A DNA stretch of 23,628 nucleotides, from the IMG/VR virus record IMGVR_UViG_3300047560_001570, positions 1 to 23,628 of that record; one strand, given 5' to 3'. The DNA comes from a virus. The position numbers and the translations under genes were made by a program. How positions within the stretch are numbered: position 1 is the first letter of the stretch; each line of letters begins with the position of its first letter. Shown here in pieces: positions 1,527-22,807 of the stretch. Below the pieces are notes generated by a model. The model did no database searches and was not told the DNA's origin. It saw nothing but the letters and a program-made list of their open reading frames with translations.

Positions 1527-1709
1527 ATGAAGACGCATAGAGAATATACCGGAACCATTGCCGAAGATGATAATGGCGAATTGGTTCTAGTTTTTTCAAA
1601 GGAGTTTATCAATGAAATGGGTTGGCAAGAAGGTGACAGCATTATTTGGGATGTTGACGAACTTAACCGAGTCGTTATCGTCAAAAAAGACACCGGTTCA
1701 GGAGACTGA
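1527..1709 (+). CDS. AbrB/MazE-like swapped-hairpin small protein
   Basis: A 60-residue protein with an AGGAG ribosome binding site at about 1515-1519. The pattern, short strands followed by a helix and then GWQEGDSIIWDVDE and VVIVKK, matches the AbrB/SpoVT swapped-hairpin fold, where a loop rich in Gly and Asp precedes the strand. Such proteins are usually DNA-binding transition regulators or antitoxins, but no toxin gene of the MazF/PemK kind is next to it. The last 98 bases also encode the start of the following gene in another frame. The target is unknown. The fold assignment is moderately firm, the role only inferred. Confidence 0.75.
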   Translation: MKTHREYTGTIAEDDNGELVLVFSKEFINEMGWQEGDSIIWDVDELNRVVIVKKDTGSGD

Positions 1710-2211
1710 CAATTATATAGATTTAACTGGTACTGGAAACAATTACTATGACTTTACAGATTATTATAACAGTAACATGTATACAAATTTAACAACGATG
1801 GCAACAACTTCTGCAAATACAGGTGTTTACACTATATCAGCAAGTCCAACTATTAATACCGGATTATCAACTGGCGGATATAATTGGGCAGCTAATAATA
1901 GTTACAATACCGGTTATAATTCATCAGTTACAATGGCGGGTGCTCATATTGATGAAGTTGATATAACTTTAAAAAGAAAAGATAAACCAGAACTTAAAAT
2001 TGGTGCAACACTAGACTTAATCATAGAATCGTTGTACATTATAGTACCAGACAATGAAGAGCATGAAAAGAATCCAGCTCTAAAGTCTGCATATGAAGAA
2101 TGGCAACGTCAATTTCAAGAACAGACTAAACGTATGCATCCATTAAAAGAAGCCTACGATAGTTACATGATGATGAAGAAACTATGTCGGGAAGATCCAG
2201 AGGAACAATAA
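1612..2211 (+). CDS. Unknown protein with Asn/Thr/Tyr-rich linker; starts inside the AbrB-like gene
   Basis: A 199-residue protein. Its ATG is preceded by AAAGGAG at 1598-1604 with a 7-base spacer, one of the best Shine-Dalgarno sequences in the window, although this lies within the coding sequence of the previous gene. The first 32 residues are read from DNA that also encodes the AbrB-like C terminus. Residues 33-110 are low complexity, rich in Asn, Thr, Tyr, Ser and Gly, and probably a flexible linker. Residues 111-199 look like a folded domain with a beta part (VDITLKRK) and a long charged helical part ending in MMMKKLC. It begins MKW like the protein at 1215. Function unknown. Confidence 0.82.
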   Translation: MKWVGKKVTALFGMLTNLTESLSSKKTPVQETDNYIDLTGTGNNYYDFTDYYNSNMYTNLTTMATTSANTGVYTISASPTINTGLSTGGYNWAANNSYNTGYNSSVTMAGAHIDEVDITLKRKDKPELKIGATLDLIIESLYIIVPDNEEHEKNPALKSAYEEWQRQFQEQTKRMHPLKEAYDSYMMMKKLCREDPEEQ

Positions 2212-2212
2212 T

Positions 2213-2290
2213 ATGTTTGGCAAGAACGACCTCATACTAAATACAATATGGAAAAAGTTTATTATGTATATCAATATGTGGATCCTATGA
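2213..2290 (+). pseudogene. Fossil 5' end of queE, cut off by the endonuclease gene
   Basis: An ATG at 2213 with AGAGGA eight bases upstream opens a short frame that starts MFGKND and stops at 2290. The present QueE protein starts MFGRNQ at 2921. The two starts differ by conservative codon and residue changes, and the upstream one has the better ribosome binding site. The simplest reading is that queE once began here, directly after the 1612 gene, and that the GIY-YIG gene was inserted within the first codons. The 25-residue peptide has no sensible continuation. The similarity covers only six residues, so chance cannot be excluded. Confidence 0.5.
2238..2243 (+). promoter_or_regulatory. T4-like late promoter box (TAAATA)
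   Basis: The sequence ACTAAATAC lies 4 bases before the ATG of the GIY-YIG gene. The same ACTAAATAC string lies 5 bases before the methyltransferase ATG at 4519. In T4, TATAAATA sits about 10 bases before the transcription start, which would put the start at or just inside this ATG. No Shine-Dalgarno sequence is present. The first two bases of the T4 consensus are not kept. Confidence 0.35.
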
Positions 2291-2934
2291 CCAGTTTACC
2301 ATTTTATATTGGAAAAGGTAAAGGTAATAGGATGTACGTTCATTTAAAAGAAACCTTTGAAAAAACTGAAAACAGGAAGAAGTACGCTTACATTAAAGGT
2401 TTAAGAAATAAAAATCTTGAACCTTTAATTGAAAAGGTATGCGACAACTTAACTGAATTAGAAGCGTATGATTTAGAAACAACGTTAATAAAAAAGTACG
2501 GGAGAATAGACATTGACCCGGGTGGTATTCTTACTAATATATGCGAAGAAAATAAACCACCTAGGTTAACTGGAAAAAATCATCCTAACTTTGGAAAATC
2601 AGTTATCTCTTCCCATACAGAAGAAACTAAAAGAAAGATATCTGAATCAAAAAAAGGTAAAACATCTTGGCATAAAGGTCGCAAAAAAAGTCAAGAGTTC
2701 TGTGAAAAACTGTCAAAAGCAAAAGTCGGTACTTCTCTAAAAGACTCAACTAAACAAAAATTAAGTGAGTTAAACAAGGGAGAAAATAATCCAAATTACG
2801 GAACATTTTGGATTACAAATGGAATCGAAAATAAAAAAGTTAAATCACTAGACAACATACCAGATAACTGGTATAAAGGAAGATCCGTGAATCATATAAC
2901 AGGATTTAAAGGGGCTAAAGATGTTCGGTCGTAA
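2248..2934 (+). CDS. Free-standing GIY-YIG homing endonuclease with NUMOD3-like repeats
   Basis: A 228-residue DNA endonuclease. The catalytic domain is N-terminal: YYVYQYVDP at 5-13 and PFYIGKGKGNR at 18-28, with Arg28 as the likely catalytic arginine. The C-terminal half holds NUMOD3-type DNA-binding motifs: GKNHPNFGK and the following TEETKRKISESKKGK, then KQKLSELNKGENNPNYG, ending in a WITNG...NWYKGRS segment common in phage GIY-YIG enzymes. The gene lies between the 1612 gene and queE and overlaps the queE start by 14 bases. It is lysine-rich and more A-rich than its neighbours, which fits recent arrival. There is no Shine-Dalgarno sequence before its ATG. It is not in an intron: almost no non-coding DNA surrounds it. 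Confidence 0.9.
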   Translation: MEKVYYVYQYVDPMTSLPFYIGKGKGNRMYVHLKETFEKTENRKKYAYIKGLRNKNLEPLIEKVCDNLTELEAYDLETTLIKKYGRIDIDPGGILTNICEENKPPRLTGKNHPNFGKSVISSHTEETKRKISESKKGKTSWHKGRKKSQEFCEKLSKAKVGTSLKDSTKQKLSELNKGENNPNYGTFWITNGIENKKVKSLDNIPDNWYKGRSVNHITGFKGAKDVRS

Positions 2935-3793
2935 TCAAATCGTAGGTCAAAAGTATTTTGATAACGCAGAAGATAAACTCTACGTTACAAGTATATTCTT
3001 TACTCTACAGGGAGAAGGTCCCTATCGAGGAGAACCTGCTGTTTTCGTACGACTTGCCAAATGTAATCTTGCTTGCTCATTTTGTGACACTTACTTTGAT
3101 GGCGGCGATTGGCTTACTATTGAACAGATAGACCAACGTATACATACTGCTATTAGTGACCATTTTGCAGGCGAAATGCCACTATGGGCCGAAGAAATAT
3201 GGACGGGCGAAACTGTTACTAAGAAGCGTAACATGGTACTGGTAGTAACAGGTGGTGAACCACTACTACAGAAAAACATTGTACCATTTCTCGAGTATAT
3301 GAATACTAGATTTGCACATACTCAGATTGAAAGTAACGGTACAGTATGGCAAGACATTCCTGCAGAAACTACTCTGGTATGCTCACCAAAGTGTAATGAG
3401 AAGCGAGGTGTTCCAACTGCATATCTAAAGCCTAATAAGCAAGTAATGGATCGTGCTGATTGTTTGAAGTTTGTTATGAGTGCAGATCAGGGTAGTCCAT
3501 ATAGTACTATTCCAGACTGGGCTCATGAATATGCACACAGTGGTAAGAAGATCTTCATTAGTCCAATGAACATATACAACAGTGAACCTCAGAAGAGTAA
3601 ACAACTCAGGGCAGATAAGAATGATATTACGCTCGAAGAGCGTAGTAATGTAGATGAGAAAATTTCGTTTTGGGATCCAGGCCTGTTAAATATGGTTGAA
3701 AATCAACGCAATCACGAGTATACTGCTAGATACTGTATGGATTATGGGTTTACTTATAATTTACAAATACATTTGTATGCCTCACTAGCCTGA
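2921..3793 (+). CDS. queE: 7-carboxy-7-deazaguanine synthase (QueE), radical SAM enzyme
   Basis: QueE converts 6-carboxytetrahydropterin to 7-carboxy-7-deazaguanine in the preQ0 pathway, using S-adenosylmethionine and a 4Fe-4S cluster. The protein has 290 residues. FFTLQGEGPYRGEPAVFVR at 26-44 is the family N-terminal signature. The cluster cysteines are C48, C52 and C55 in CNLACSFC, and TGGEPLLQ at 110-117 is the SAM-binding GGEP motif. Bacterial QueE proteins are usually shorter, and the extra length lies partly in an insert around 62-103 and a longer C-terminal part. The start is inside the end of the endonuclease gene and has AAAGGGG upstream. It works in the same pathway as FolE at 322; queD and queC are not in this window. 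Confidence 0.95.
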   Translation: MFGRNQIVGQKYFDNAEDKLYVTSIFFTLQGEGPYRGEPAVFVRLAKCNLACSFCDTYFDGGDWLTIEQIDQRIHTAISDHFAGEMPLWAEEIWTGETVTKKRNMVLVVTGGEPLLQKNIVPFLEYMNTRFAHTQIESNGTVWQDIPAETTLVCSPKCNEKRGVPTAYLKPNKQVMDRADCLKFVMSADQGSPYSTIPDWAHEYAHSGKKIFISPMNIYNSEPQKSKQLRADKNDITLEERSNVDEKISFWDPGLLNMVENQRNHEYTARYCMDYGFTYNLQIHLYASLA

Positions 3794-4518: not shown

Positions 4519-5100
4519 ATGGAATCACAAATAGAGTATTTAAAAAGAAACGGCTTATGGTTAAGCACGGCTACACATCAAGCTGCTTGGGGATTAATCG
4601 ACCCTATTAATGCGTTAGGTGAGAACCTTCGCGGTATTGAAATTGGTGTACAATCCGGAATGAACAGCTATATGCTCTTAGAATTTTGTCCAAACATTAA
4701 AAAAATAATGGGCATTGATCCTTATAAATCATATAAAGATTGGGATAAAGTGGTTCCTCAACTAGACTTAGATGCAAACTTCGAAACATTTCAAGGCAAT
4801 TATGAGCATATGAAAGATCGTTTCGAATTAGTAAAGATGTCTAGTAATGAAGCTGCACCCTTACTTAAAAATGAATCATTTGATTTTGTGTTTATTGACG
4901 GCGATCATAGTCTGAGAGCTGTATTAGATGATTTAACTAATTATGTACCAAAAGTTCGCAAGGGCGGAATAATTGCAGGACACGATATTGGATTAGGTGG
5001 CGTAACTATGGCTATCCAAAGTTGGTGTAAACGAAATAATATAGATTTATCAACAGTAAGACTAATTGAAAACACTGCATGGTATTGGATTAAAGAATAA
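4519..5100 (+). CDS. Class I SAM-dependent methyltransferase
   Basis: A 193-residue protein with a Rossmann-type methyltransferase fold. GIEIGVQSG at 39-47 is motif I, which binds S-adenosylmethionine; IMGIDPY at 63-69 gives the acidic residue (D67) that binds the ribose. DFVFIDGDH at 122-130 is the motif IV region with the IDGDH signature of the Methyltransf_24 family, followed by GGIIAGHD at 149-156. This family methylates small molecules, sugars or proteins, and the substrate cannot be read from sequence. DNA base methyltransferase motifs (DPPY or PCQ) are absent. The gene probably has its own TAAATA-type promoter and may be translated from a leaderless message. Confidence 0.88.
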   Translation: MESQIEYLKRNGLWLSTATHQAAWGLIDPINALGENLRGIEIGVQSGMNSYMLLEFCPNIKKIMGIDPYKSYKDWDKVVPQLDLDANFETFQGNYEHMKDRFELVKMSSNEAAPLLKNESFDFVFIDGDHSLRAVLDDLTNYVPKVRKGGIIAGHDIGLGGVTMAIQSWCKRNNIDLSTVRLIENTAWYWIKE

Positions 5101-22246: not shown

Positions 22247-22807
22247 ATGGGACATACACTGATTTTAAATGCAGACTACAGTCCTCTTAGTTTTGTACCA
22301 CTCAGTACAATCAGTTGGCGGGATGCAATAAAGATCAATTTCCTCGGTCATGCAAAAGTGATCGAGGAATATGAGGATTGGTTCGTACACAGTCCCAGCA
22401 TCTCTATACCTGTGCCGTCTGTAATGATTAGCGAAACTTATATCAAGACCAAGCAGCATGTAAAGTTTAGTCGTGCTAATCTATTAGTTAGAGATAACTT
22501 CACATGCCAATATTGCAGCAAGCATCTAGAAATCAAGGAACTAACTGTCGACCACGTGGTTCCTCGAGTTAGAGGTGGGAAGACCACTTGGGATAATATT
22601 GTTGCTAGTTGTTATGTTTGTAATACTATCAAAGGGCATAAGCAACATATGAAACCCAAGCAGAAGCCTTATAAGCCAGACTATTATAGTCTTGTTAATA
22701 ATGCAAAAAAGATGCGAGTTACTATTCCCGATCCCAAGTGGTTACCATACCTAGACTGGGACCCTGATCTAGTAACAATTCAACCGCCTAATAAAAATTT
22801 TAAATAA
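22247..22807 (+). CDS. HNH endonuclease
   Basis: A 186-residue protein. The N-terminal part (LILNADYSPLSFVPLSTISWRDAIK, 5-29, then VHSPSISIPVPSVM) is the well-known N-terminal region of a family of HNH proteins shared by bacteria and phages. The nuclease domain follows: FTCQYC (C87, C90), LTVDHVVPRVRGG with the D102-H103 pair, TWDNIVASC with N117, and CYVCN (C122, C125), so a zinc-bound beta-beta-alpha-metal fold is complete. It could be a homing endonuclease, but the family is also common as a fixed gene, and here it has normal composition. Its promoter region is a TAAATA box adjoining the ATG. Confidence 0.92.
   Translation: MGHTLILNADYSPLSFVPLSTISWRDAIKINFLGHAKVIEEYEDWFVHSPSISIPVPSVMISETYIKTKQHVKFSRANLLVRDNFTCQYCSKHLEIKELTVDHVVPRVRGGKTTWDNIVASCYVCNTIKGHKQHMKPKQKPYKPDYYSLVNNAKKMRVTIPDPKWLPYLDWDPDLVTIQPPNKNFK

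Follow-up and report, generated by a model that had tools for sequence, protein, structure and literature searches.

A gene for a free-standing GIY-YIG homing endonuclease has probably inserted into the first codons of queE in the phage studied here, and its homing would carry along the 5' end of the donor queE. The window, i.e. the whole stretch of DNA that was analysed, is a virus record of 23.6 kb (23,628 nt). Judged by sequence comparison, the insertion is real and recurrent; delivery of a foreign queE start is seen in outline for a sister element (L067) and is put forward as a hypothesis for the window. The evidence comprises four cases, three of them related and one independent, all on metagenomic contigs.

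Table 1. Features of the queE locus in the window
Feature	Position	Strand	Basis or remark
Upstream gene (function not assigned)	1612..2211	+	Homologue close to queE in endonuclease-free L032, 44% over 80 aa
Shine-Dalgarno GAGGAA of orphan queE start	2200..2205	+	Sequence; spacer to ATG 2213 of 7 nt
queE stub ATGTTTGGCAAGAACGA (MFGKN + GA of codon 6)	2213..2229	+	Homology to endonuclease-free queE stops about here
Left end of element, without Shine-Dalgarno ahead of endonuclease ATG	2230..2247	+	Counterpart in L014 and L112 is GAYATAAATANNAG
GIY-YIG homing endonuclease gene, 228 aa	2248..2934	+	LEM-3-like GIY-YIG domain and NUMOD3 repeats
Shine-Dalgarno AGGGG of present queE	2910..2914	+	Within endonuclease tail codons HITGFKG, conserved in L112
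Intact queE (7-carboxy-7-deazaguanine synthase-like radical SAM), MFGRNQIVGQKYF...	2921..3793	+	Sequence and homology

The preliminary description of this DNA had noted, after the 1612 gene, an orphan start with a ribosome binding site that reads MFGKND and then dies. Indeed, the ATG at 2213 lies immediately 3' of that gene behind the sequence GAGGAA, translates as MFGKNDLILNTIWKKFIMYINMWIL and is followed, in a frame differing from that of the endonuclease ORF, by a stop codon at 2288-2290. The MFGRNQ start of QueE was likewise correctly placed in the last codons of the endonuclease; both ORFs overlap by 14 nt, and the endonuclease ends with GAT GTT CGG TCG TAA (D V R S stop). Between both starts of 18 bases, 8 and not about nine positions differ, and to call the encoded peptides near-identical was slightly too strong, since MFGKND and MFGRNQ have four of six residues in common. 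Shine-Dalgarno sequences precede both queE starts of the window, and none precedes the ATG of the endonuclease.

Both queE start codons are in the same frame with a spacing of 708 nt, as would be expected if an intron or a programmed bypass joined the stub to queE in RNA or protein. This is extremely improbable, because almost no noncoding sequence lies between the parts and because queE has its own complete start and Shine-Dalgarno sequence, so that nothing needs joining; programmed bypass was rejected as unneeded for this reason. Self-splicing introns gave no Rfam match at the gathering score in the window or in the carriers L014, L067 and L112, by which a group I or group II intron was ruled out, and there is no room for a ribozyme outside the endonuclease ORF.

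Two further genes of the window may be mentioned. Upstream of the queE locus, a MazE/AbrB-like DNA-binding protein is encoded (1527-1709), and a similar protein occurs at the equivalent place in L014. At 22247-22807 an HNH protein is encoded, the HNH portion of which resembles the HNH domains of IscB and Cas9d.

The endonuclease matched the Pfam profiles PF22945 (LEM-3-like GIY-YIG domain, 3.2e-10, above the cut-off) and PF07460 (NUMOD3, a C-terminal modular DNA-binding motif, 4.2e-18); in the same type of search, NUMOD3 obtained no score in the orthologue of L112. Its PHROG match was a homing endonuclease, and a comparison to GIY-YIG chains of the PDB yielded an E value of 2e-11. Orthologues are encoded by L014 (61% identity) and L112 (51%), and Y6, Y8, Y20, R28 and E77 are invariant across all three proteins. 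The tail HITGFKGxKxVR is conserved between the window and L112, and both tails overlap queE. The gene is present at the queE start in the window, L014 and L112 and missing at the other queE loci, with a different nuclease in the L067 group. Taken together, the domain, NUMOD3 and this presence/absence polymorphism characterise the window gene as a putative free-standing GIY-YIG homing endonuclease.

For comparison, phages from GenBank (Phosso, Dinoroseobacter phages, Pan1 and ACP17) and 80 queE loci from IMG/VR, three of them with an endonuclease, served as relatives. The expectation of the preliminary description that queE of endonuclease-free phages would begin near MFGKN was borne out, as nearly all such relatives examined (>75) start with [MVL]FGxN; one exception is the GenBank relative L011 with ATT TTT GGG CTA AAC at this position. 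It had further been expected that queE would then lie directly after the 1612 gene. Among the endonuclease-free relatives, L032 is the nearest one in terms of full-length QueE (77% aa); just upstream of its queE lies a homologue of the 1612 gene, and one ORF of 67 aa separates the two genes. This homologue (aligned over 80 aa) was the only one found, as none was detected in the GenBank phages and none by pattern in the viral contigs. In general, the gene content upstream of queE differs strongly among the relatives.

The orphan starts match ordinary queE starts of endonuclease-free phages. With the start base excluded, the window stub differs from queE of L036, L074 and L086 at one of 16 nt, the stub of L014 is identical over 16 nt to an endonuclease-free start, and that of L112 shows one mismatch over the same length; the longer stub of L067 differs from L057 queE at 4 of 56 nt. 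The stubs are thus most plausibly captured remains of uninterrupted alleles, in which the native gene end survives as a relic. The earlier proposal of an endonuclease gene that broke into queE within its first codons was upheld. Codon 6 is GAY in three of three stubs of the window-type endonuclease versus 0 of 63 endonuclease-free starts; therefore, the element probably begins at codon 6. Apart from queE-like starts, both strands of 2.78 Mb of sequence contained the start motif [AGT]TGTTYGGNNNNAAY about 19 times, and one of these 19 is the stub of L112. Its rarity, the top scores of the queE loci in the survey described below and the recurring layout argue against a chance origin of the orphan start.

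Legionella genomes and MAGs (L192-L212) also encode a phage-type QueE, 48-58% identical to that of the window, and many of them start with MFGLN or MFGMN. They have no stub, and a scan with the start motif revealed no additional queE start at these Legionella-type genes.

L014 and L112 are phages distant from the window; in both, an orthologous endonuclease gene occupies this position and is preceded by the same stub. In L014, the stub ATGTTTGGAAAAAATGACATA... (MFGKNDINIR) ends with a stop codon that overlaps the endonuclease start as ATGA, and queE begins with MFGKNSIVGKK. In L112, the stub ATGTTTGGTTAGAACGATATA stops at codon 4, and queE begins with VFGKNSIVS. L067, L070 and L071 carry a very different GIY-YIG gene at the queE start (29% identity over the domain), preceded by an L057-like stub of 19-20 codons, and here as well queE starts inside the last endonuclease codons. 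A second, very different nuclease is taken to have entered the queE start independently.

At 102 GIY-YIG loci, a repeat of the downstream gene start was sought upstream of the endonuclease; queE loci scored 15-27 and all others at most 13. A general habit of the GIY-YIG family was ruled out, as among these 102 loci a convincing repeated start occurred at queE loci only. No further carriers were found by pattern scans for the TTCGGT start or for the stub, or among the matches listed in the endonuclease-alignment scan, and the L067 element had no DNA-level relative in the GenBank phages. In a tree built from the QueE residues after the intein site (see below), the carriers are scattered, and the well-supported branches require a minimum of four changes of label; L014 groups with endonuclease-free L088 and L067 with endonuclease-free L055. 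Such scattering indicates that the element moves or was lost repeatedly.

Two observations concern the surroundings of these elements. In L014, an ORF for a DUF723/DUF4379 zinc-finger, nuclease-like protein (1074-2018) and several extra genes separate the GIY-YIG gene from the gene which is the neighbour of queE in relatives. In L067, a structured spacer with long complementary arms (GCGTGGTC...GACCAC...CGC) lies between the stub and the second endonuclease (4990-5057).

What came along with the element is clearest in L067. In comparison to queE of endonuclease-free L055, codons 1-28 differ at 27 of 81 nt (33%) and the remaining 798 nt at 24 (3%; p 6e-17), and the first 126 nt past the codon-28 boundary show no difference at all. 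This step is the trace expected of a short co-converted tract, and by these alignments the L067 element demonstrably delivered a foreign queE 5' end of about 84 nt. Codons 15-28 equal those of L058 at 41 of 42 nt, and codons 1-14 differ from L058 at 11 of 42 nt, mostly synonymously.

The preliminary description had suggested that the element carried a recoded 5' end, by which the host gene was restored and the cleavage site removed. For L067 this holds insofar as the 28 codons are foreign and partly synonymous. It was not supported for the window, where the present start is not unusual. That the elements carry a selected, synonymously recoded end for self-protection is rather unlikely in our estimation. 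If an L058-like donor is assumed for L067, codons 1-14 contain eight synonymous codons, one amino-acid change and the start codon versus 1 of 42 bases in codons 15-28 (p 0.003), but codons 1-14 could just as well be a mosaic to which a third natural allele contributed (L041 at 8 of 56). All four stubs read TTT at codon 2 and the four present starts read TTC, a codon seen in 17 of 63 endonuclease-free starts, and TTCGGT occurs in three of four carriers versus 4 of 63. The TTT/TTC contrast has a p of 0.008 if the cases are independent, which three of the four are not, and gives a weak hint of cleavage protection. Moreover, the TTC of L014 queE is also present in its endonuclease-free sister L088 and so need not be a protective change. 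Finally, L014 and L112 share all 16 nt after the first base of their present starts despite unrelated, distant queE bodies, which would fit a recoded end and suggests that the queE 5' end travels with the endonuclease.

In the window, codons 1-14 of queE differ from L032 at 7 of 42 nt, which is below the gene average (259 of 870) and no more than expected, and codon use at this start was not unusual in comparison to endonuclease-free alleles. The present start thus looks like an ordinary allele of the window's lineage, as the stub does for a different lineage, and their differences need not be recoding. Both starts are best read, from their alignments, as natural alleles, the stub being of the K type of uninterrupted queE and the present start of the R type. 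The comparison with L032 revealed no boundary between a foreign 5' end and a native body within the window queE; the element may have brought the entire gene, or else it may be the stub that is foreign.

The lack of an internal recombination boundary, together with the strong variation of gene content upstream of queE, would also agree with the arrival of the endonuclease and a whole foreign queE beside a resident queE that was later deleted save for the stub, so that homing would be intergenic and would need no coding target. This course of events is clearly unlikely, since two very different endonucleases both lie within codons 6-20 of queE and since the L067 queE body is native past codon 28.

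Homing into the coding start with a donor 5' end is our preferred explanation and a likely one. The target would most likely be the conserved 5' coding end of queE, as the upstream sequences vary among phages while codons 1-13 are conserved. The enzyme would cut uninterrupted queE, and the break would be repaired from an element-carrying phage, whereby the endonuclease and the donor queE 5' end are copied in, as a short tract in L067 (28 codons) and, for the window, possibly as the whole gene. The sequence itself shows five to six initial codons of an uninterrupted queE with their ribosome-binding site on the left, which would be the stub left from the recipient, then the element, and on the right a complete queE start, the ribosome-binding site of which lies in the last codons of the endonuclease. 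The right-hand queE copy contains the whole coding target; hence, the element would be spared by a different, largely synonymous spelling, the only evident protection, and not by physical disruption of the site. It appears doubtful that two very different GIY-YIG endonucleases independently became cassettes which enter queE start codons with a synonymously respelled, cleavage-proof 5' end and their own ribosome-binding site, and which use the captured old start for self-expression or self-repression.

Expression of the endonuclease deserves attention in this context. A clear Shine-Dalgarno sequence ahead of its ATG is missing in the window, L014 and L112, and each stub has one; it is plausible from this arrangement that ribosomes are now loaded onto the endonuclease through the stub. 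In T4, several free-standing endonuclease genes likewise depend on ORFs located upstream of them, and I-TevI represses itself by binding to an operator that resembles its homing site and precedes its ORF (PMC2988022). By analogy, the stub could be kept for a function, either as a leader ORF which supplies the endonuclease with ribosomes or as an operator at which the enzyme would bind its own half-site and repress itself. This would be compatible with the preferred explanation and is in itself somewhat unlikely. Over their first 17 nt, all differences between the window stub and that of L014 are synonymous and at third positions, but independent capture of coding starts accounts for such differences. 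A Shine-Dalgarno-like sequence is kept in all four cases and the ATGA overlap occurs in L014; on the other hand, the L112 stub stops at codon 4, so that the peptide is not conserved. In L112 (2450-2490), a hairpin (z -2.97) is predicted to include the start codon of the endonuclease, directly after an exact TATAAATA, the T4 late-promoter sequence, whereas the window has no significant structure and no TATAAATA (0 versus 2.7 expected). As a common element of the carriers, the late promoter was rejected, because it occurs in L112 only.

Mobile ORFs of fungal mitochondria (Allomyces atp6; Glomus atp6, atp9, cox2 and nad3) bring a replacement C-terminus and leave the native end as a relic (PMC3630166). 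The queE elements resemble them in the endonuclease within a conserved gene and the relic of the native end; a foreign, mostly synonymous gene end was seen in L067 and could not be recognised in the window. The fungal elements, however, affect the 3' end, reside in mitochondria and mostly encode LAGLIDADG enzymes, whereas the phage case concerns the 5' end, a GIY-YIG enzyme and new translation-start signals without a fusion. In this analogy, the queE elements are the phage 5'-end mirror image of the fungal ones. Titles and abstracts of the open-licence literature contained no report of a 5'-end version or of homing endonucleases in queE.

Like the Seg endonucleases of T4, the window gene is a free-standing GIY-YIG gene beside a conserved phage gene and would co-convert its flanks, and several free-standing T4 endonucleases have no discernible ribosome-binding site of their own and overlap with a neighbouring gene (PMC2988022). 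Seg genes are described as intergenic, and hundreds to thousands of bp separate them from their cleavage sites; in contrast, the queE element sits among the initial codons of the gene, of which a stub remains. In T4 mobA/gene 60, an endonuclease likewise splits a conserved phage gene, and a nearby change was proposed to shield the downstream part from self-cleavage (PMC5009743, PMC3014915). However, mobA encodes an HNH enzyme, splits the gene in the middle into two proteins and would be protected by a bypassed insert of 50 nt, whereas at queE a complete gene is restored and protection, if any, would come from codon spelling. As with the I-TevI operator (PMC2988022), a homing-site-like sequence lies just upstream of the endonuclease ORF; at queE, this is a remnant of the interrupted gene and a candidate regulator only.

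These elements suggest that a conserved phage gene can harmlessly take up a selfish endonuclease at its coding start, without an intron or intein, if a replacement start comes along. Genomes that contain an old and a new start side by side are ready natural material for a cleavage test of self-sparing. For annotation, the relic start may mislead gene callers, and phylogenies may be misled by the foreign 5' end.

An intein was also observed in phage queE, just ahead of the last cysteine of the radical-SAM motif CxxxCxxC, in L014 (3664-5481), in L001, L002, L004 and L006 (upstream of position 3001) and in L003. With the two types of GIY-YIG elements, the kinds of selfish element known from queE here number three or more.
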